Shown here: positions 13,565-25,731 of the stretch, piece by piece
How positions within the stretch are numbered: the first letter of the stretch is position 1
Layout of the letters: the number at the start of each line of letters is the position of its first letter
Assembly (NCBI RefSeq): GCF_009380135.2
Contig: NZ_WHUT02000007.1
Location: forward strand, 124,001-188,000
Reading direction: 5' to 3'
DNA length: 64,000 bases
From: Fertoeibacter niger
GTDB lineage: Bacteria > Pseudomonadota > Alphaproteobacteria > Rhodobacterales > Rhodobacteraceae
Notes under the pieces: model-generated
Databases searched by the model: none
Seen by the model: the letters and a program-made list of their open reading frames with translations, nothing else
What the model was told of the DNA's origin: nothing
Translations under genes and position numbers: made by a program

Positions 13565-14317
13565 TCAGCCATAGCGCAGCGGGGCCTTGCGCAGCTTTGG
13601 CCATTGATCCGGCGCATGGCCCCAGATCACGAATGCCCCCTCGGCCAGCGCCATCAGCCGCGCGGCACTGGCCGCAGCCTGTGCGGGGTCATGCGCACCG
13701 GCAAACCCCTCAACCACCTCGGCCGGGCGGGAAATGGCATCACTGGTGATCAGCACGCGCCCGGTCTGCGGCAGGTCCAGCAACAGCGCCAGTTGCCCCG
13801 GCGCGTGGCCCGGCACCAGCAACACGCGAAATCCCGGGGCCAGATCTGCATCGCCGGCCAGCAGGTGATAATCAGCCTCGGGCCAGTCCATCGGCTGTGC
13901 CGCGCCCCAATACAGTGGGCGCGGCAAGGCCCGCTCGGCAGCCGCCATCAACACCGGCACACCGGGAAAACCGGCCAGCCCACCCACATGGTCGATATGG
14001 CTGTGGGTCAGGATCAGCAGATCAATGTCTTGCGGCCCAAGGCCCAGCAGCGCCAATTGCCCCAGAGGCAGGTTTTCCGCCGTCAGCGCCAGCACCTCGC
14101 CAAACTCGCCCAGATTGTCGGCCTCGCTGGCCGCCTGCGGATCAACGGCATAGGCGGGCGGAAAGCCGGTATCGACCAGCACATGTTCCCCCGCATCGGT
14201 GCGGATCAGAAAGCCGCTGATGCCGATCACCCGCCCGTTGGCATGCACCCGGAACAGGCCGTAATCCAGCACCGCCAGATCACGCGGGCGACCTTTCAGT
14301 TGAAACACGTCTGTCAT
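13565..14317 (-). CDS. Metallo-beta-lactamase-fold hydrolase (AHL-lactonase-like family)
   Basis: A 250-residue MBL-fold protein. The metal motif HxHxDH is present as [10 protein letters not shown] at about residue 120. Further ligands are a His in [10 protein letters not shown], an Asp in LITSDAI and a C-terminal His in IWGHAPDQW. An N-terminal LVDTGFP strand also fits the lactonase-like branch. ATG 14317 is preferred because a GGGGG tract is correctly spaced upstream. Members of this branch hydrolyse lactones, thioesters or similar compounds, and the true substrate cannot be read here. The gene is followed by the PLP enzyme on the same strand and is divergent from speD. Confidence 0.75.
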
Positions 14318-14414
14318 CGCCACCCCCCGTTCAAAAGACCGGGTGCCTTGGCCGAAGTCAAGCCGCCCCCAGTTCGGCTTTGTGCCGGGCCGCCGTTTCA
14401 GCTATCGCAGCGGT

Positions 14415-14789
14415 ATGGAAACGCCCGCCGACCATCTGCCCGGCACGCATCTGCTGGTTGACCTTTACGGGGCCGCGCATCTGACCGATGCGGCGGCGCT
14501 GGAGCGCATCTTGTGCGATGCGGCAGGTGCGGCAGGGGCCACCATCATTGCCACGCATTTCCGGGTGTTTCCGGGTGCTGCGGGGGTGACGGGCATGGTG
14601 CTGCTGGCGGAATCGCATATCTCGATCCACACGTGGCCGGAGCTGGGCTTTGCGGCGGTGGACATCTTCATGTGCGGCGCCGCCGATGCCGATGCCGCCC
14701 GCATGGCGCTGGAGGCTGCGATGGCACCCACCCGGGCCGAGGTTGTGGCCGTGGCGCGGGGGCAGGCCCGGGATCAGCGAAACCAGTAA
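14415..14789 (+). CDS. speD: S-adenosylmethionine decarboxylase proenzyme
   Basis: A 124-residue prokaryotic-type (SpeH-like) AdoMet decarboxylase. It makes decarboxylated AdoMet, the aminopropyl donor for spermidine. The self-cleavage and pyruvoyl site is the Ser of [10 protein letters not shown] (S67), with H72 and C87 at the same +5 and +20 spacing as in characterised bacterial enzymes. The N-terminal [11 protein letters not shown] is the usual opening. The start at 14415 gives the standard length. Its 3' end overlaps the 3' end of the membrane spermidine synthase gene by 16 bases on the opposite strand. The two steps of spermidine synthesis are therefore encoded tail-to-tail. Confidence 0.93.
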
Positions 14790-16351
14790 TCCCAGCCTTC
14801 ATTGTAATAGCCGACCAGCGCATGTGACTGGATGCGATTGAGATCCGCCGCCATGTCGGCCACATCGGGGGCAAACACCTGCGCCTCGCGCCAGATGGCA
14901 TCGGTCATGTAACGCAGACCGGGCGGCAGTTGCAGCGGGCGAGGGGCCAGCGGGCGCGGGCTGGCCAGCACAAAGCCCCAGTCGCCAAAGCTGGGCACAT
15001 AGGCGTGATAGGGCACCACCGCCAGCCCCTGCCCCGGCACCTGCGGGTTGCGGGTGGCAGCCAGCGTCTGCACCACCGACCAATAGGCCTGCCGCGCGAA
15101 CATGGGCGATCCGGCCTGCACCGCGATCAACCCCTGCGCGCTGATCCGATCGGCCAGCATGCCATAGAATTCAAGGCTGTAGAGTTTTGACAGGGCGATG
15201 GATTTCGGGTCGGGCAGATCGACGATCACCACATCATAGACCGCGCGGCTTTCCCCGACGAATGCCCATGCATCCTGCGACACCACCATCAGGCGCGGGT
15301 CGTTCAGCGCGTTGCCGTTCAGCGCCACCAGATCGGCATGGCCCGCGAACAGTTCCGTCACCCGCGCATCCAGATCGACCAGCGTGACCGCCTGCACATC
15401 CGCATGCCGCAGCACCTCGCGCGCGGCCATCCCGTCGCCGCCGCCCAGTATCAGCACCTGCGACCGGCGCGGGGCCAGCGCCATGGCCGGATGCACCAGC
15501 GATTCATGATAGCGGTATTCGTCCAGCGTATCGAACTGGATCGAGTAATCCAGAAACAGCCGTGTGCGGTCACGAAACCGGGTCAGGGTGATCTGCTGAT
15601 AGGGCGTTGTTTCCGACAGGATCACGTCATCCTCGAACAGGTTCGCCTCGACCACCGACACCAGCCGTTCGGCCTGCACCAAGGCGGCCAGCGACAGCAC
15701 CAGCGCCACGCCCCAGACTGCCCAGACCCGGCCCCCCATGCGGTCGCGAAAGATCCACAGCGACAGGCCCGCCACCAGAAGGTTCAGACAGCCAAAGGCA
15801 AGGCTGGCCGACATAAGCCCCAGATGCGGCAGGATCAGCAGCGGAAAGGCGACGGATGCCACCAGCGCGCCCACATAATCCACGCTCAGCACATTCTCGA
15901 ACCGGAATTCCGGCGCGCCGATTTCCTTCAGCACCCGGGCGATCAGCGGAATCTCCATGCCCGACAGCACACCGATGCAGATCAGCATCGCATAGAGCGG
16001 CAGGCCGACAACCCCCGCCAGCATATAGGAAAAATACAGCACCGGGGCCAGAAACCCGCCCAGGATTCCCAGCAGGATCTGCGCCCAGACAAAGCCCGGC
16101 AAGGCATGGGTGACAAAGCGCGACAGCCACGCCCCCAGCCCCATCGCGGCCAGAAACACCCCGATCACCAGCGAAAACTGCCGCACGGAATCACCCAGCA
16201 GATAGCTGGAAAGGGTGGCCGCAATCAGCTCATAGATCAGGCCCGCCACCGCAACCAAGAAGGTCGCGCCAAGCAGCCAGACCTCGCGCAGTTGCGGGCC
16301 TCTGGATGGCGTCAGCACCGGCAGGGCATCATGACAGGATGACAGCCGCAA
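14774..16351 (-). CDS. speE: Membrane-anchored spermidine synthase (polyamine aminopropyltransferase)
   Basis: A 525-residue protein in two parts. Residues about 20-230 form six to seven membrane helices. The C-terminal half is a spermidine-synthase Rossmann domain with the nucleotide motif [17 protein letters not shown], then VDLDARV, and the catalytic segment VDLPDPKS. It would transfer aminopropyl from decarboxylated AdoMet to putrescine or a related amine at the inner membrane. Many soluble SpeE enzymes lack the membrane part. The start is uncertain: TTG at 16351 overlaps the DUF350 gene by 23 bases, GTG at 16318 is an alternative, and neither has a clear ribosome-binding site. It is the last gene of the five-gene DUF4178-DUF350 operon. 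Confidence 0.88.
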
Positions 16352-16553
16352 TGATGATCGACAGTGACAGAAACACAGCCCCGATCAGCACGGCCAATGC
16401 AACGTTCTGATCCTGCTCGATTTCCTTGACCACCGGAAAGGGTGCGATGCGGGTGATGATCCACCAGCACAGCGCCATCATACTCACCCCCATGATGGTG
16501 TAGAACAGCGTCCCGATCACCTCGGACGGGTTGATTGCTGCCATGATATCCAT
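16329..16553 (-). CDS. DUF350-family small membrane protein (YjfL-like)
   Basis: A 74-residue protein with two membrane helices, about residues 13-34 and 50-73, and a short loop containing PFPVVKEIEQDQN. That length and the Gln/Asn-Val-Ala loop resemble one repeat unit of DUF350, the family of E. coli YjfL, thought to be a membrane channel-like protein. AGGA is correctly spaced before the ATG. It lies between the 54-residue protein and spermidine synthase in a tightly packed operon. The family's biochemical function is not established. A link to polyamine handling is inferred from this context and from yjfL being near the glutathionylspermidine-synthase-like yjfC in E. coli. Confidence 0.75.
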   Translation of the reverse strand: MDIMAAINPSEVIGTLFYTIMGVSMMALCWWIITRIAPFPVVKEIEQDQNVALAVLIGAVFLSLSIIIAAVILS

Positions 16554-16564
16554 TGTGATCCTCG

Positions 16565-16729
16565 CTATTTGACGCGTGAGTTGGAAGAATAGCCTCCGAT
16601 GCCGCTGCCCATGCGGATCGAACGATCCAGATCAGTGCTTTCATTGCCGATGCCGTGGTAGGACAGATACCCCGCCCCCGCTGTGGTCAGCAGCGCCCCG
16701 GCCAGAATGACGATGCGAAAGGCATTCAT
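16565..16729 (-). CDS. 54-residue single-pass membrane or exported protein
   Basis: A short gene between two operon partners. It encodes 54 residues: a hydrophobic N-terminal segment (about residues 4-20, opening MNAFRIVILAG) and then a polar tail with LDRSIRMGSGIGG. GAGGA lies eight bases before the ATG, and the ATG is three bases after the stop of the DUF4178 gene. Packing, ribosome-binding site and GC-rich third positions support a real gene. There is no lipobox, so it is either a signal-anchor protein or a cleaved secreted peptide. No family is recognised; a partner of the DUF350 protein is a guess. Confidence 0.7.
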   Translation of the reverse strand: MNAFRIVILAGALLTTAGAGYLSYHGIGNESTDLDRSIRMGSGIGGYSSNSRVK

Positions 16730-16732
16730 CTG

Positions 16733-18022
16733 TCAGTCCTCATCTGTCCAGTCGGTGCCCTTCCAGCGGGCACGGCGGTGCTGGAAGGGGCCCGCGGCCT
16801 TCCACAAAGCCACGGCACCAAAGGCCAGCGCCGCCAGCAGCGTCCACAACGGATGCCCCGCACCATTGCTGGCCGATACGGTGACGGCGGGCACCGGGCC
16901 ACCGCCGGCCGCCTCGCCCAGACCCGCCTCGGGCACGTCGATCTCCAGCGTGTAGGTGCCGGCCTCGGCGGGGCGAAACAGCAACCGGGTGCGGCTGTCA
17001 TCCTCGGTCCAGGGCCCGTCATCATAGCCGCTGTAATGCGCGATCTCGCGCCCGGCAATGAACACCGGCTGGTCATCCGGGTCGGTCAGCGTCAGTTCGA
17101 CAAAGGCCCAGCCGTTGTTCACCGTGCCGCTGACGGCGATTTCGGCCAGCCGCCCGGGGCTGTCGATTTCCAGCACAAGTTCTGTGGGCAACTGGTCGGC
17201 GGCAAAGGTCTGGGGTGGCAGGATCGGGCGTCCCATCGTCACCATCCACAGGCTGAGCGCCAGACACACGCCGCCAAATCCGATGGCCGCGTTGCGCAGG
17301 AACGCATCGTTGGGGCCCGCGGCGTAGGGTTGCAGCGGGTGGATGCCCGCTGGCGGCAAGGCTCGGGGGATGCCAAAGGCGGCCAGTGTTTCAGCCTGCG
17401 GCAGATAGACCGACCGTTCAATAGCCCTTTCGCTGCCGCTTTGCGTGTAATGCAGCATCGCATCTTCCGAAAGCACGCTGACAGTCTGCGACCGGTCACC
17501 CACCGCAGGCCGCCAGGTGAACTCGCCCTCGGCAAAGGTGATCACGCTGGTTGTGGTTTCGTAATAGGTGAAGCCCTTGCCTTCGGCCATGGCACGGGGC
17601 GGGGTTTCGGCGCGTTCCACCTCGGCAGGGCTGATCCATTCCGGGCGCAGCGGCTTGCGCCAGCGCCGGGTAAAAATCAGATGGCTGTCTTCCAGCGTCA
17701 GCCAGGCATAGCCATGCGTGTCGGAATAGATCAGGTGATCCACCCAGACCCAACTGCGCCCGCCATGGCTTTCCGACAGGCCAATGACGCCGATCACCCG
17801 GTAAGCTACTCCGGCCACCGCTCCCTCCGCCCCGATGCGCAGGGGGGTGGCGGGGCGATCCAGTTCGGTGAAGGTGCGCAGGATGCGGTAATTGTCCAGC
17901 GCATCCAGTTCGCTGCCGCAATAGCCGCAGATATGGGTCGTCACCCGCCCGCCGCCCAGCACTGGCAGGCCCGCCCCGCAGCCGGTGCAACTGATGCTGC
18001 GCAGATCGGCGCTGACGCTCAT
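16733..18022 (-). CDS. Zinc-ribbon DUF4178 protein with C-terminal membrane helices
   Basis: A 429-residue protein. An N-terminal zinc ribbon (SCTGCG, then THICGYCG, residues about 8-33) is followed by two DUF4178-type beta-rich modules. The first is recognisable by GVAYRVIGVIGLSE and WVWVDHLIY. Near residues 250-275 is a membrane helix (GFGGVCLALSLWMVTMG), then a beta-sandwich exposed segment with acidic YSGYDDGPWTEDD, and a last helix near the C-terminus. The ATG at 18022 overlaps the stop of the preceding DUF4178 gene (ATGA), so the two are translationally coupled. The function of DUF4178 is unknown. The ribbon suggests a cytoplasmic docking module feeding into the membrane. Confidence 0.75.
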   Translation of the reverse strand: MSVSADLRSISCTGCGAGLPVLGGGRVTTHICGYCGSELDALDNYRILRTFTELDRPATPLRIGAEGAVAGVAYRVIGVIGLSESHGGRSWVWVDHLIYSDTHGYAWLTLEDSHLIFTRRWRKPLRPEWISPAEVERAETPPRAMAEGKGFTYYETTTSVITFAEGEFTWRPAVGDRSQTVSVLSEDAMLHYTQSGSERAIERSVYLPQAETLAAFGIPRALPPAGIHPLQPYAAGPNDAFLRNAAIGFGGVCLALSLWMVTMGRPILPPQTFAADQLPTELVLEIDSPGRLAEIAVSGTVNNGWAFVELTLTDPDDQPVFIAGREIAHYSGYDDGPWTEDDSRTRLLFRPAEAGTYTLEIDVPEAGLGEAAGGGPVPAVTVSASNGAGHPLWTLLAALAFGAVALWKAAGPFQHRRARWKGTDWTDED

Positions 18023-18639
18023 CGCCGGTCCACCCGCACATCGAACGGGTCCACCCATTCGCCCAGAAACCAGCGCGCGCCGTCAGGGCCGAATTCGCCT
18101 GACAGAAGCGTGGCATCGGCGGCGGTGGCGTTGATGAAGTGATGCACCTCGCCGATCAGCAGAAGGTCGGGGAAATTGCCGCGCAGCGCCACACAAGTGG
18201 CCTCTTCGGCCTCGGTCACGGTGAAATGCCCGTCAAGGCAGCGGAATGCGCTGCCAAGGGCGGGCGGCGTGCTGAACGCAGGCATGCCCCCGTCCAGCGG
18301 TTCCTGCACCACCACATCGCCCTCATCCACCGAAATCCAGCGCCCCGCGCCGGTATCGGAGGTGGTCCAGAATTCATCCCAGGTGCCCCGGCCATAGCTG
18401 TAGCGCGCATGGCCCACCGGATGATACGTCAGCCCGCCGATCACCACCCGGTCGCCCAGCCCGAACAGCAGCGGCACGTCATGCATGACGCCCTGCTCGC
18501 CCGCCAGCCGCATCTGGTCATCCTGCACGAACAGGCTGGTGCCGCAGGAGGGGCAATTCATCATCTTCAGCCGCGCGAACTGCGGGCCGAGGCTGTCACC
18601 ACATTTCGGGCAGTTCCGCTGCGTCATGGGCCGGATCAT
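18019..18639 (-). CDS. Zinc-ribbon DUF4178 protein, soluble
   Basis: About 206 residues with an N-terminal zinc ribbon (NCPKCGDSL, then NCPSCGTSL) and one DUF4178 module. The module is recognised by GDRVVIGGLTYHPVGHARYSYG, WDEFWTTS and GRWISVDEGD. It has no membrane segment. ATG 18639 is preferred because GGAA lies about six bases upstream; ATG 18627 would shorten it by four residues. It is the first gene of the operon leading to the second DUF4178 protein, the 54-residue protein, DUF350 and spermidine synthase. A degraded tadC lies upstream. The two DUF4178 proteins probably pair. No enzymatic residues are obvious. Confidence 0.75.
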   Translation of the reverse strand: MIRPMTQRNCPKCGDSLGPQFARLKMMNCPSCGTSLFVQDDQMRLAGEQGVMHDVPLLFGLGDRVVIGGLTYHPVGHARYSYGRGTWDEFWTTSDTGAGRWISVDEGDVVVQEPLDGGMPAFSTPPALGSAFRCLDGHFTVTEAEEATCVALRGNFPDLLLIGEVHHFINATAADATLLSGEFGPDGARWFLGEWVDPFDVRVDRR

Positions 18640-19860: not shown

Positions 19861-20093
19861 TGGGTGGCGGCGATGTAAAAGGCCTGTCGGCGCTGATGCT
19901 GTTCGTGCCGCCGCAGGGGCTGTCGCTGTTTCTGCTGGCGCTGTCGGCGGCGCTGTTTCTGGGCATCGGCGCGCTGGCGCTGGCCCGGTGGGGTTTCGGC
20001 CTTCCCACATCTCCCTCGGCCGCGCTGCGCACGAAGCGCTTTCCCATGGGAGTTTCCATCGCGCTGGCCGGTCTGGCGTTGCCGCTGGCCTAA
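19851..20093 (+). pseudogene. Prepilin peptidase (A24, TadV/CpaA-like) 3' fragment
   Basis: On the plus strand, codons from 19851 read DGWVGGGDVKG, containing the second aspartate motif (GGGDVK) of A24 prepilin peptidases. Two hydrophobic stretches follow (LSLFLLALSAALFLGIGALAL and a shorter C-terminal one) and a closing FPMGVSIALAGL, which fits the family's PYGxAIxxG end. Third-position GC is very high, so this frame was coding. The N-terminal half with the first catalytic Asp is absent; upstream the frame is only the antisense of tadB. It is therefore a truncated gene, joined head-to-head to the tadB remnant. Confidence 0.55.
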
Positions 20094-20884
20094 CCGCGTC
20101 CGGTCAACAGCGGCAGCATCAGCGCAAACAGTTCCGCCTGCGATGAAATCCCGCAACGCGCGTAAAGCTGTTTGCGGAACACCTTTACCGTTTGCGCCGC
20201 CACGCCCAGCCTGAGGCCGATCGACACCGAGGAATGCCCGCGCAGGATCAACAGCGCCACCTCGGCCTGCCGCTGCGACAGGCGAATGCCATGCGCCGCC
20301 AATGCGGCCCGCGTCAGTTGATCGGGCACATCGGGGGCCGGGCCGGGCTGACCCACCAAACCCGCCCAGTGCGCCTCGGCCAGCGCCGTGACGATGGGCG
20401 CGATGCGGCTGGCCGTCTCGATCTCACGCGGGGCAAAGTTCTGGCCCGAGGATGCGTCGCGGCCAAGGCAGATGTTCAGCGACACCCCCGCCACCGGATA
20501 GGCGACAAAGCCGATCTCGTCGATCAGCGTGGTTTGCTGATAATAATCAAGGAAATAACGGCTGCGCTGGAACGCATCGGGGGCAACGTCGCGCAGGCGG
20601 TAGGCCCCGGCGGGCGCGCGGGCCAGATGCAGATCGTGGTAGGGGTCCAGCAGATAGGCCCCGGCCAGATAGGTTGTGTCCATCGCGGCAAACACCTGCG
20701 GCCCGTCGGCCTGCCGGAACAGGGCCTGCGGCGGCCCGGCATCGCGGTAGGCCATCACAATGATATTGTCGAACGGCAGGCAGCGGTGCAAAAAATCTCG
20801 CAGGGCGGATTCAAACCCGTTCTGCCCCAGCCTGCGGATGGTCTGCGCCAATTGTGTCTCGGCGGAATTGGGCAGGCTTTGCAT
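20090..20884 (-). CDS. LuxR-family transcriptional regulator
   Basis: A 264-residue regulator. The C-terminal LuxR helix-turn-helix spans about residues 198-260, with [45 protein letters not shown] split over its helices. The N-terminal region (about 20-185) is not a receiver domain and lacks a clear acyl-homoserine-lactone pocket signature, so it may be a solo ligand-sensing LuxR. GAGG precedes the ATG. It is divergent from the polyamine ABC operon across about 110 bases that hold a striking palindrome, and it likely controls that operon. Its 3' end overlaps the prepilin-peptidase fragment by four bases. Confidence 0.85.
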
Positions 20885-20929: not shown

Positions 20930-20996
20930 ACACAGGGGTTTAGCCTTTTTACCAGATTGCGGGGGTATGAACCAGCCCGCCGCCAGCGGAGACTGG

Positions 20997-22054
<1,058 letters not shown>

Positions 22055-22055
<1 letters not shown>

Positions 22056-22975
22056 TGGCTGGCTTTGCACCCAAGACCGGGGCAGAGGGCACGGGATACA
22101 CCCGCATCGTCGGCCCATTGCTGCTGCCCACCTGGGCGATGATCGGCATATTCCTTGTGCTGCCGGTGGCGCTGATGGCGGTTTACTCCTTTCTGACCAA
22201 GGAATTCCGCGGCGGCGTGATCTGGGATTTCACCACCGCCGCCTATGACCAGTTCTTTGTCACCCGTGGCCTGTTCGGAGACGAACCAGCGGCGATCGAG
22301 TGGACCTATATCGGCATTTTCTGGCGGTCGATCTGGCAGGCGGGCGTGGCGACGCTGGTCTGCCTGATCGTGGGCTTCCCTACGGCCTGGTTCATCGCCA
22401 CACGGCCCCCTGCCAGCCGCCAGTTGTGGCTGTTCCTGATCACTATTCCCTATTGGGTGAACCTGCTGATCCGCACCGTATCGCTCAAGTTCCTGATCCG
22501 CGACAACGGGCCCTTGAACGAATCACTCATGGGTCTTGGCCTGATCGATGGCCCTTTGCCGCTGGTGAACACCAACCTGGCCGTGCAGCTGGGGCTGTTC
22601 TACAGCTATCTTCCGTTCATGGTGCTGCCGATCTACGCCGCCGTCGAGCGTTACAACTTTGCGCTGTCCGAGGCTGCGGCTGACCTCTACGCCTCCCGCT
22701 GGGTCACGCTGCGGGAAATCGTGTTGCCCGTGGTGCGCCCCGGCATCATCGCGGGCTGCATTCTGGTGTTCGTGCCGTCGCTTGGGGCCTTTCTTGCGCC
22801 CGACCTGCTGGGCGGTGCGAAAACATTCATGATCGGGTCACTGATCGAGGAACAGTTCAAGGGCAGCCAGGGCAACTGGCCCTTTGGCGCGGCCTGCGCG
22901 ATGATCCTGATGACGCTGGTGATGATCGTGCTGATCGCCTATGCCCGCCAGCAATCCCGTGCGGAGGGTGGCTGA
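22055..22975 (+). CDS. potB: Spermidine/putrescine ABC transporter permease 1
   Basis: A 306-residue permease of the PotB/PotH type with about six membrane helices. The first is [19 protein letters not shown] near residues 22-42. The EAA-like coupling loop reads [20 protein letters not shown] near residue 205 and would dock on PotA. It forms the membrane channel with the next gene product. Its start overlaps the potA stop and its stop overlaps the next ATG, so all three are translationally coupled. Confidence 0.9.
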
Positions 22976-23775
22976 TGGATCTGCGCCGCTACCCCGGTTT
23001 CCGCGCCATGACGCTGCTGTGTCTGGTGATCCTTTATACCCCGCTGATCGTCATCACCGTCTACAGTTTCAACGCATCGACCAGCATCACCACCTGGGGC
23101 GGGTTTTCCTGGCGCTGGTATGCAGATGTCTTTACTGGCCCCGAAGCCCCGCGTTTCCGCGCCGCCGCGTGGAACTCGCTGACGATTGCGCTGATCGCCG
23201 CCACCACGGCCACGCTGATCGCCACGGCCGCTGCCGTGGCCATGGTGCGGGGCGGGCGGTTCCGGGGCAAATCCGCCACCTTCACGCTGATCAACCTGCC
23301 GCTGATGGTGCCGGAAATCGTGATCGCTGTGGCCACGCTGATCTTCTTTTCCATGATCGGGCTGACAACCGGCTATCTGACCATACTGATCGCCCATATC
23401 ACCTTCTGCATCCCCTTCGCCTACCTGCCCATCGCCGCCCGGCTGCAAGGCATCGAGGCGACGTATGAGCAGGCGGCCCGCGACCTTTACGCAACCCGCG
23501 CGCAGGCATTCCGGCTGATCCTGCTGCCCTTGATGATGCCGGGCGTCATCTCGGGCTATCTTCTGGCCTTCATCATCAGCCTCGATGACTTCATCATCAC
23601 AAATTTCGTCAAGGGCGCGGGCATGGAAACCCTGCCCACCGCCATCTTCGGCTCGGTCAAACAGGGCATAAAGCCCAACATCATGGCGATTTCCACCATG
23701 ATGCTGGCCGTGTCGGTGCTGCTCGTCACCCTGTCCTATTTCGTCAACAGAGCCGGGCAAAAGACCCGCGCCTAA
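22975..23775 (+). CDS. potC: Spermidine/putrescine ABC transporter permease 2
   Basis: A 266-residue permease of the PotC/PotI type with six predicted membrane helices. The first is [21 protein letters not shown] (split around the Pro). The EAA-like loop is [21 protein letters not shown] near residue 160. The conserved segment [13 protein letters not shown] near the end is characteristic of this permease class. It pairs with the preceding permease. The binding-protein gene starts 17 bases after its stop with a strong AAGGAG site. Confidence 0.9.
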
Positions 23776-23792
23776 TCCAACAAGGAGATCCC

Positions 23793-24821
23793 ATGAACCG
23801 CCTTCTTACCACCGCCGCCGCCTTTGCCTGCCTTGCCGGGGCCGCCCATGCCGAGGGCTCGCTTTCGGTCTATCACTGGTTCGAATACATCCCGCAGGAA
23901 CTGGTGGACAAATTCACCGCCGAGACCGGCATCGCCGTGACCATCGACACCTACGACAGCAACGAGGCGATGCTGGCTTCGCTGAAGGCGGGCAAGCTGG
24001 GCCAGTATGACGTGGCCGTTCCCGCCGATTTCATGGTCAGCATCATGGCGGCCGACGGGATGCTGGATACCTTCACGCCCGAAGAAATGCCCAACCTCGG
24101 CAATATCGAACAGCAATGGCTGGATGTGTATTTCGACCCGGGCCGCAAATCCTCGATCCCCTACCAGTGGGGCTCTACCTCCTACGCCGTGAACCGTGAT
24201 GTCTATACTGGCCCGATCGACAGCCTGGGCGTGATCTTTACCCCGCCGCCGGAACTGGCGGGCAAGATCAACTCGCTGGATAGCCAGAACGAGGTGCTGA
24301 TACTGGGCTCGCTGTTCCTCGGCATCCCGCAATGCACCACTGACCGCGAACAGCTGAAGGCGCTGAACGACATGCTGCTGGCGGCCAAGGAAGGCTGGGC
24401 CAGCTTCGGGTCCGACACCGCGAAGGACGTTCTGGTGTCGGGCGATGCGGCGGCGGGCATGATCTACAACGGCTTCTCCGCCAAGGCGCGGGCCGAAGGC
24501 GCGAATGTGGAATATGCCTATCCCAAGGAAGGCCATGTGCTGTGGATGGACAACGTGGTGCTGCTGAAAGACGCGCCGAACCGCGAGAACGCGCTGAAGT
24601 TCATGAACTTCCTGCTGGTGCCGGAAAACGCCGCCGCCGTGACGAATTACGCGGCCTATACGGCGGGGGTAAAGGACGTGGCCCCTTTCCTTGACGAGGC
24701 GATCAAGACCAGCCCCGAAAACAACCCGCCCGCCGATGCCACCCCCGGCGTTTTCGCGCAGGCCTGCGATCAGGAAACGCAGCAGTTCTACGACGCCATC
24801 TGGACCAACCTGAAAAAGTGA
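23793..24821 (+). CDS. Polyamine ABC transporter substrate-binding protein (PotD/PotF type)
   Basis: A 342-residue periplasmic binding protein with a classic signal peptide (hydrophobic core to about residue 18, AHA cleavage at about 20, then EGSLSVYHWFEYIP). Polyamine-family landmarks are YHWFEYIP, YDSNEAMLASLKAG, DVAVPADFMV and the IPYQWGSTSYAVN loop, whose aromatic and acidic residues line the amine pocket. It captures putrescine, spermidine or a related amine and delivers it to the potABC-like complex. AAGGAG lies at ideal spacing. Which polyamine is preferred cannot be decided by eye. The downstream hydrolase suggests carbamoyl- or acyl-putrescine-like compounds are possible. Confidence 0.88.
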   Translation: MNRLLTTAAAFACLAGAAHAEGSLSVYHWFEYIPQELVDKFTAETGIAVTIDTYDSNEAMLASLKAGKLGQYDVAVPADFMVSIMAADGMLDTFTPEEMPNLGNIEQQWLDVYFDPGRKSSIPYQWGSTSYAVNRDVYTGPIDSLGVIFTPPPELAGKINSLDSQNEVLILGSLFLGIPQCTTDREQLKALNDMLLAAKEGWASFGSDTAKDVLVSGDAAAGMIYNGFSAKARAEGANVEYAYPKEGHVLWMDNVVLLKDAPNRENALKFMNFLLVPENAAAVTNYAAYTAGVKDVAPFLDEAIKTSPENNPPADATPGVFAQACDQETQQFYDAIWTNLKK

Positions 24822-24966: not shown

Positions 24967-25731
24967 ATGAGGCTCGCCCTCTGGCAGGGCCACTCCCCGG
25001 CGGGCGACATTTCCGCCGCGATGGCCGCGCTTGAAACCGCGCTCAACGCCGCAGGTGCGGCAGGGGCCACAACCCTCGTCACCCCGGAAATCTACCTGCC
25101 CGGCTACAACCACCCGGCCATCGCCGACCACGCACAGCCGCGGGGTGGCGCATGGCATGGGACGGTGGCCGCGTTCTGCCGCAAGGCCGGTTGCGGCATC
25201 GTGCTGGGCTATGCAGAACGCGATGGCGCAACGGTTTGCAATTCTGCGCTGGTGCTGGATGATCGCGGCGCGCAGGTGGCACATTACCGCAAGATCCAGC
25301 TCTACGGCCCGCGCGAAAAGGCACTCTACACACAGGGCGACGCCTATGTGACCTTTGATATGAACGGCACAAAGGCCGCTATCCTGATCTGCTATGACAT
25401 CGAATTTGCCCCGCATGTTGCGGCGCTTGCGGCGCAAGGGGTCAGAATCATCCTCGTGCCCACCGCCAACATGCAGCCCTACACCCATGTCGTGCGCCAT
25501 ACCGTGCCCGCCATGGCGGCCAACCATGCTGTCAGCATCGTCTATGCCAATTACTGCGGCAGCGAAGGCGATCTCGATTATGTTGGCGGCTCTCTGATCG
25601 CCGCTGCCGATGGCAGCATTCCGGCGCAGGCAGGCACCACCCCCGCGCTGCTGATCGCTGATCTGCCGGAAGGCTACCCCGAACAGCATCTGTCCACACA
25701 GGCCCTTGACCTGCGCACCATCCCGCTGTGA
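24967..25731 (+). CDS. Carbon-nitrogen hydrolase (nitrilase superfamily amidase)
   Basis: A 254-residue nitrilase-superfamily protein with the full catalytic triad: Glu41 in TPEIYLPGY, Lys109 in HYRKIQLYG and Cys142 in LICYDIEFA. A second structural Glu lies near KALYTQGD. These enzymes hydrolyse amides or carbamoyl groups with a Cys nucleophile. The best-known polyamine-linked member is N-carbamoylputrescine amidase, but that enzyme is usually about 290 residues, and this one is nearer to the short aliphatic/omega-amidase group. It lies 145 bases after the polyamine binding-protein gene on the same strand, which suggests cleavage of an imported amine derivative. No ribosome-binding site is obvious. 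Confidence 0.75.
   Translation: MRLALWQGHSPAGDISAAMAALETALNAAGAAGATTLVTPEIYLPGYNHPAIADHAQPRGGAWHGTVAAFCRKAGCGIVLGYAERDGATVCNSALVLDDRGAQVAHYRKIQLYGPREKALYTQGDAYVTFDMNGTKAAILICYDIEFAPHVAALAAQGVRIILVPTANMQPYTHVVRHTVPAMAANHAVSIVYANYCGSEGDLDYVGGSLIAAADGSIPAQAGTTPALLIADLPEGYPEQHLSTQALDLRTIPL

Follow-up and report, generated by a model that had tools for sequence, protein, structure and literature searches.

A conserved C-terminal lysine as candidate acceptor of a 7TM-spermidine synthase in DUF350/DUF4178 clusters

The most informative feature of the polyamine-linked gene cluster of Fertoeibacter niger is a single residue, the terminal lysine of a 54-residue protein (p54), which the first-pass annotation of this DNA had left unmentioned. 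Judging from the sequences, the seven-transmembrane spermidine synthase of the cluster (7TM-SpdSyn) may move an aminopropyl group from decarboxylated AdoMet (dcSAM) to the lysine at the C-terminus of a tail protein encoded in the same cluster, giving a tethered spermidine-like side chain. We put the probability of this reading at about one half.

The cluster lies in a window of 64,000 nucleotides, the whole stretch of DNA that was analysed. The first-pass annotation had listed two DUF4178 proteins, a 54-residue protein, DUF350, SpeE, and SpeD, and all six genes were located where it had placed them. The soluble DUF4178 protein (202 aa, minus strand, 18019..18627; Pfam PF13785, E 2e-12) has an N-terminal zinc ribbon. 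Its gene adjoins DUF350/SpeE across phyla and has an alternative ATG at 18639, the end coordinate given in the first pass. The membrane DUF4178 protein (429 aa, minus strand, 16733..18022; Pfam PF13785, E 1.9e-9) gathers, in this order, a zinc ribbon, DUF4178, a TM segment, a second beta domain, another TM segment, and an acidic end (...SDWTDED). Its AF2 model has a pLDDT of 90 and a pTM of 0.74, and the search of the PDB for similar folds gave TM-scores of at most 0.35, with no interpretable match. The zinc ribbons announced for both DUF4178 proteins are present (CxxC...CxxC), and their four cysteines never vary among 27 aligned homologues of the membrane type. The candidate acceptor, p54 (minus strand, 16565..16729), has an N-terminal hydrophobic segment and a Gly/Ser/Arg-rich tail ending in GIGGYSSNSRVK, whose final lysine is encoded by AAA (minus strand, 16568..16570) next to a TAG stop (16565-16567). 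The DUF350 membrane protein (74 aa, minus strand, 16329..16553; Pfam PF03994, E 7.3e-11) is about half the length of the 133-position Pfam model. The 7TM-SpdSyn itself is an MFS/7TM-SpeE (minus strand, 14774..16351; NCBIfam PRK03612, 611.5 bits; Pfam PF01564), with start candidates at GTG 16318 (~514 aa) and TTG 16351 (~525 aa). SpeD is an AdoMet decarboxylase of class 1b (124 aa, plus strand, 14415..14789; TIGR03330, 113.5 bits for a cut-off of 75.65) and has the self-cleavage motif. It lies tail-to-tail with SpeE, and the 16-base overlap described earlier is the one we find at 14774-14789. SpeD is convergent here. Many distant phyla have it as the opening gene of the operon. A PotABCD-like polyamine importer is encoded 2.3 kb past the cluster.

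The association of these genes is widely conserved. Of 25 other Pseudomonadota genomes with DUF4178, 23 have SpeE and DUF350 next to it. In a sample of nine phyla, 80 SpeE loci had DUF350 within 5 kb in 67 cases and DUF4178 within 5 kb in 66, while 10 had neither DUF350 nor a tail protein near SpeE, some of these being short contigs or second copies. At least nine phyla have a cluster of this kind, and the genes are thus not neighbours by chance. This bears out the earlier proposal of a recurring membrane-linked SpeD/SpeE/DUF350/DUF4178 system, whose clustering is conserved in distant genomes and not unique to this strain. A syntenic short ORF with the architecture of p54 is also found across phyla, which indicates that the 54-residue ORF is a real gene.

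We found a membrane-linked tail protein with a Gly/Ser/Arg-rich C-terminus and a terminal lysine in all 109 loci that encode DUF350 together with SpeE or DUF4178 (98 came from a blind filter, and the other 11 were read by hand). A few genomes were sampled twice. The loci share phylogeny and thus do not represent 109 independent events. The background frequency of C-terminal lysine is 8.6% among 1,011 other large ORFs. The residue is carried by several types of scaffold: p54-like mini-proteins, the C-terminal end of the fused DUF4178 protein in Betaproteobacteria (for example ..SSGGGHK), proteins of 80-120 aa ending in ..GGK or ..SGK, and lipoproteins of more than 230 aa ending in RRGK, SRGK, or FGGK. 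Homology between the p54-type proteins and the lipoprotein tails is not demonstrable. No match to p54 was found in Pfam, NCBIfam, or PHROGs, nor was there a convincing Pfam match for the other separate tail proteins. We considered a cause at the nucleotide level, the ribosome-binding site of the next gene, and ruled it out because two lysine codons (70 AAA and 34 AAG) and all three stops are used and the downstream genes vary. For the tails on lipoproteins and signal anchors, the predicted location is the periplasm. Our literature search found no report of a lysine-ended tail in DUF350/SpeE/DUF4178 clusters.

The enzyme retains its catalytic motifs: no change in GGGDG, DxxDP, or YHE occurs among 48 homologues. 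The dcSAM site (GGGDG) and the catalytic DxxDP are shared with SpeE of E. coli, from which the enzyme differs in the GP loop on the putrescine side and in the tyrosine of PTY, replaced by PSF with a two-residue deletion. The AF2 model (pLDDT 90.8) has the SpdSyn fold and an N-terminal 7TM domain. The folds closest to the SpdSyn domain are those of aminopropyltransferases with broad specificity or long-chain products, such as Thermus 1uir and the thermospermine synthase 6bq2. Since the positive charge is on the even loops in all 48 sequences, we infer from sequence that the catalytic domain is probably outside, in the periplasm, like the tails. The number of TM segments is uncertain because AF2 renders residues 140-189 as one long helix.

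A second family of DUF350 loci encodes a YgiC/YjfC-type ATP-grasp ligase. There, the tail ends in Gly in 14 and in Ser in 4 of 18 loci, all from one phylum, and never in Lys. YgiC and YjfC are reported as peptide-spermidine ligases, and the E. coli proteins YjfM and YgiB end in GG. The link to yjfL/yjfC drawn in the first pass is real: the YjfL-YjfM-YjfC and YgiB-YgiC systems resemble the cluster of F. niger in placing an enzyme of polyamine chemistry by a protein that is linked to the membrane and has a tail rich in Gly, Ser, and Arg, and DUF350 is common to the yjf locus and to this cluster. They differ in that the E. coli systems (DUF350, DUF1190) use an ATP-grasp ligase and have tails ending in Gly/Ser, whereas p54 ends in Lys and none of the six genes of the cluster encodes an ATP-grasp ligase according to Pfam and NCBIfam. 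The ATP-grasp enzyme of the sister system looks like a cytosolic protein and its tail partner like an exported one, a mismatch that counts against the proposed reading. We dropped the idea of one scaffold swapping its end, as the Lys-lipoproteins and DUF1190 (Gly) align in the signal peptide only.

Parts of this cluster have a history. Li et al. 2019 (Biochem J 476:2579) reportedly described AdoMetDC, an MFS-SpdSyn fusion, and DUF350, and concluded that the substrate of the enzyme is other than putrescine; they are said to have left open the substrate of the membrane-fused SpdSyn with AdoMetDC. To our knowledge, no acceptor was proposed in that work. Its system has SpeD, the membrane-SpdSyn fusion, and DUF350 in common with ours, and only here is a specific residue the acceptor candidate. 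Ravi et al. 2024 (PMC11237479) describe an operon linked to PSP in which a 7TM-spermidine synthase is encoded with DUF350, DUF4178, and a lipoprotein, and propose a role in membrane dynamics for it. Most of the cluster was already reported by Li 2019 and Ravi 2024, and the term 'undescribed system', used in the first-pass annotation, was too strong. The operon of Ravi 2024 shares the 7TM-SpdSyn fusion and the adjacent DUF350 and DUF4178 with F. niger, but it has a CesT/Tir-PspA dyad, whereas the cluster of F. niger lacks PspA, has two DUF4178 genes and a convergent SpeD, and encodes the 54-residue mini-protein in place of the lipoprotein. PspA has no match in the whole genome of F. niger (99% complete) and was therefore rejected as an obligatory partner in this genome. 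The C-terminal lysine is not mentioned in the available portion of that paper. More distant precedents exist for the enzyme and for its putative product. The fungal NHMT (AN4663; PMC10349129), a 7TM N-terminal histidine methyltransferase acting on the terminal residue of secreted proteins, resembles 7TM-SpeE in architecture (seven TM segments and a SpdSyn-like domain), but it methylates and has Ile in place of the dcSAM-binding Asp, which 7TM-SpeE keeps. In diatom silaffins, lysine side chains of small peptides bear aminopropyl units (PMC3820600), although these lysines are internal and eukaryotic, whereas that of F. niger is terminal and bacterial.

In the proposed mechanism, SpeD would produce dcSAM and the 7TM-SpdSyn would transfer its aminopropyl group to the side-chain amine of the last lysine of the tail, here p54. 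Because the side chain of lysine amounts chemically to a tethered aminobutylamine, the product would be a spermidine-like arm, perhaps lengthened by repeat rounds. DUF350 and the DUF4178 zinc-ribbon proteins may serve as membrane scaffold or regulatory partners. We infer the tail as substrate, the lysine chemistry, the periplasmic catalysis, and a role in envelope physiology. Among the considerations that speak against aminopropylation, dcSAM must get to the periplasm if the predicted topology is right, and the C-terminal lysine may be kept for another reason, such as attachment to peptidoglycan as in Braun lipoprotein. A literature search on aminopropyl-lysine retrieved no paper.

The alternatives differ in what they leave unexplained. 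The aminopropyl acceptor might instead be a lipid headgroup or a small soluble amine. The lysine-tailed protein would then be a partner of the enzyme, such as a sensor of the membrane or of polyamines, rather than its substrate. The similarity of the fold to 1uir and 6bq2 makes a larger free polyamine acceptor possible, and Ravi 2024 prefers polyamine monitoring or the aminopropylation of other substrates (PMC11237479). We nevertheless regard this as unlikely, as it explains neither why the last residue of a mere partner is constantly lysine nor why Gly/Ser occurs exactly with a carboxylate-amine ligase. In Lpp, an invariant terminal lysine has its side chain joined to peptidoglycan. The tails, lysine-ended like Lpp and predicted to be periplasmic when they are lipoproteins or signal-anchored, could likewise be covalent anchors, attached by an L,D-transpeptidase encoded elsewhere. 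This is very unlikely, because the Gly/Ser-ended sister tails could not be joined in this way and the conserved SpeD and SpeE would remain unaccounted for. Nor did inspection of the clusters bring a transpeptidase to notice in passing. We give hardly any credence to a different chemistry of the 7TM-SpdSyn on the tail, such as methylation: NHMT, also a 7TM protein with a SpdSyn-like domain, does methylate a protein N-terminus, but its Ile replaces the Asp/Glu of GxG(D/E)G, the Asp is invariant in our 48 sequences, and SpeD, the maker of dcSAM, is beside the enzyme or in its operon in many loci.

The first pass held that the two enzymes make spermidine; in this reading, they would do so at the membrane, and the other products would regulate or transport it. 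7TM-SpeE indeed keeps every catalytic residue of spermidine synthase and is the sole Spermine_synth match in the genome, and the importer mentioned above is close by. This reading fares poorly on other grounds, and we find it quite unlikely. Bacterial membrane-APT fusions are reported, in PMC12803844 (citing Li 2019), not to be involved in spermidine or spermine synthesis. In E. coli K-12 deleted for speE, relatives of the enzyme reportedly do not bring spermidine back. The acceptor loop differs from that of E. coli SpeE. Elsewhere in its genome, F. niger encodes a carboxyspermidine dehydrogenase/decarboxylase pair, a route proven for spermidine in Paracoccus denitrificans (Rhodobacterales). 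In our preferred reading, held at about even odds, the cluster would be a protein-modification cassette rather than a spermidine pathway.

Extending aminopropylation of the terminal lysine to the sister loci, we tentatively propose, with slightly less confidence than we would grant an even bet, that DUF350 systems generally put a polyamine on the end of a membrane protein: an extracytoplasmic 7TM aminopropyltransferase would modify Lys tails, and the ATP-grasp enzyme would attach spermidine to Gly/Ser tails. The terminal Lys, and the Gly/Ser that accompany a peptide-spermidine ligase, narrow the search to a single protein, a single residue, and a single mass shift. If true, this would define a protein lysine aminopropyltransferase, put right the frequent mislabelling as 'polyamine aminopropyltransferase', and assign a function to the gene neighbourhoods of DUF350, the yjf genes of E. 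coli among them.

The cluster is transcribed on the minus strand in the order soluble DUF4178 protein, membrane DUF4178 protein, 54-residue protein, half-length DUF350 protein and membrane-fused spermidine-synthase-like protein (7TM-SpeE), and the AdoMet decarboxylase gene (speD) is convergent to it with a 16-base overlap. The first-pass annotation had described this inventory and arrangement accurately, and the clustering it expected in distant genomes was borne out in at least nine phyla. DUF4178 is present in 26 of 399 Pseudomonadota genomes, including the one under study; SpeE and DUF350 share its fetched stretch in 23 of the remaining 25. When the SpeE alignment was run against named genomes, 80 loci were recovered, spread over at least nine phyla: Pseudomonadota, Campylobacterota, Gemmatimonadota, Acidobacteriota, Myxococcota, Bacteroidota, Elusimicrobiota, Desulfobacterota, and Planctomycetota. 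DUF350 lies within 5 kb of SpeE in 67 of these loci (within 300 bases in 58) and DUF4178 within 5 kb in 66; SpeD is on the fetched stretch in 35, frequently heading the operon.

Some loci depart from this organisation. The Rhodocyclales-type 7TM-SpeE of six fetched loci (L089, L091, L093, L101, L129, L132) have no DUF350, DUF4178, or recognised tail within reach and are possibly second copies; in L133, these genes are about 5 kb distant from an enzyme of the same type. Among the fetched DUF4178 loci, there was only one, L049 in genome G169, for which no cluster gene was found close by, and this genome encodes a 7TM-SpeE and a small Lys-ended protein on a separate short contig (L146). In the window, a PotABCD-like polyamine ABC transporter (20934-24821, plus strand; PotA above the TIGR01187 cut-off, then a pair of permeases and the periplasmic binding protein) is followed by a nitrilase-like hydrolase (24967-25731). 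This proximity is not conserved, because just a few further loci (L061, L065, L068) have a PotA-like gene near the cluster. A metallo-beta-lactamase-fold gene (13565-14323, minus strand), whose product falls short of the AHL-lactonase cut-off, and an ORF resembling a LuxR-type regulator (20090-20884, minus strand) flank the cluster region at a distance.

The first-pass annotation regarded the cluster as a candidate for an undescribed system, with two enzymes that make spermidine. The operon type, with PspA, is already described in Ravi et al. 2024 (PMC11237479), which cites Li et al. 2019 for AdoMet decarboxylase linkages; PspA had no match in this genome. A 2025 polyamine paper (PMC12803844) states of bacterial membrane-APT fusions that they are experimentally uninvolved in spermidine/spermine synthesis. 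The cluster is thus known and widespread, and the name ‘spermidine synthase’ is probably wrong. The genome has a single Spermine_synth protein, encoded in the window, and adjacent carboxyspermidine dehydrogenase and decarboxylase genes on another contig (G000:C5:3003-7082, locus L002). Such a pair leads to spermidine in Paracoccus denitrificans (PMC11999265) and is likely the spermidine route of this organism. Given this pair and the statement on membrane-APT fusions, spermidine synthesis by the cluster is unlikely.

The AF2 model of the enzyme (48 homologues) is confident (pLDDT 90.8) and shows the spermidine-synthase fold in full, and its closest solved structures are aminopropyltransferases with longer or varied acceptors. 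The dcSAM-binding GGGDG and catalytic DxxDP motifs are invariant in the 48 homologues. The enzyme shares its catalytic residues with E. coli SpeE but differs from it in the loop that follows DxxDP and in the acceptor-side PTY motif, from which we infer that aminopropyl chemistry is likely kept on a different acceptor. Seven TM segments are predicted, and in 48 of 48 sequences it is loops 2, 4, and 6 that carry the positive charge (mean 8.6, against 1.3 for loops 1, 3, and 5); the stretch beyond TM7 is acidic. From this pattern the catalytic domain is predicted to be periplasmic. The lipoprotein tails, the signal-anchored mini-proteins, and the DUF4178-TM-tails are likewise predicted to lie there. 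The 7TM domain and DUF350 are, by position only, candidate routes for dcSAM into the periplasm. Fungal NHMT (PMC10349129), an ER-resident 7TM protein with a SpdSyn-like domain, acts on secreted proteins by modifying their N-terminus and has the same arrangement, a likeness of architecture.

The DUF4178 membrane protein comprises a zinc ribbon (four invariant Cys), a beta-rich domain, a TM segment, a second beta domain, another TM segment, and an end that is acidic in most homologues; a fold search with its model returned no informative match. DUF4178 and DUF350 are regarded as putative scaffold or regulators. Where a separate protein bears the Lys tail, as in L040, L081, L086, L114, and other loci, the last residues of the DUF4178 membrane protein form an acidic run (such as ..DDD), to which the cationic tail could bind.

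Between DUF4178 and DUF350, a short ORF is found across phyla, and its last residue is Lys without exception. In Betaproteobacteria, where it is absent, the fused DUF4178 protein terminates in a TM segment and ...SSGGGHK; in gammaproteobacterial and other variants it is replaced by a protein of 80-120 aa ending in ..GGK or ..SGK, or by a lipoprotein of more than 230 aa ending in RRGK, SRGK, or FGGK. Of the fetched loci, 109 combine DUF350 with SpeE or DUF4178, and all 109 have a Lys-ended tail, a count to which no simple probability attaches because the loci are related and a few genomes entered the sample twice (e.g. L034/L065, L036/L064, L038/L060). In 98 of them a Lys-ended candidate was retrieved by a filter that took no account of the last residue, and the other 11 were read by hand. 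Terminal Lys occurs in 8.6% of 1011 other large ORFs on the same stretches. The terminal codon is AAA or AAG, followed by stops of all three kinds.

A peptide-spermidine ligase requires a C-terminal carboxylate, an aminopropyltransferase an amine. We compared 20 DUF350 loci from genomes without a membrane SpeE above its cut-off, of which 18 have a YgiC/YjfC-type ATP-grasp gene. YgiC and YjfC are reported to be peptide-spermidine ligases (Pederick 2023, as cited in PMC12568646). In 18 of 18 ATP-grasp loci the tail protein, which is either DUF1190 or small and unrelated, ends in Gly or Ser (E. coli YjfM and YgiB have a C-terminal GG), whereas the tails of the 109 clusters end in Lys. The tail's last residue tracks the chemistry of the enzyme, and this match is the strongest single argument for the tail as substrate. 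The data fit a reading, new as far as we found in the literature, in which the enzyme would aminopropylate the C-terminal Lys of the tail protein instead of making spermidine.
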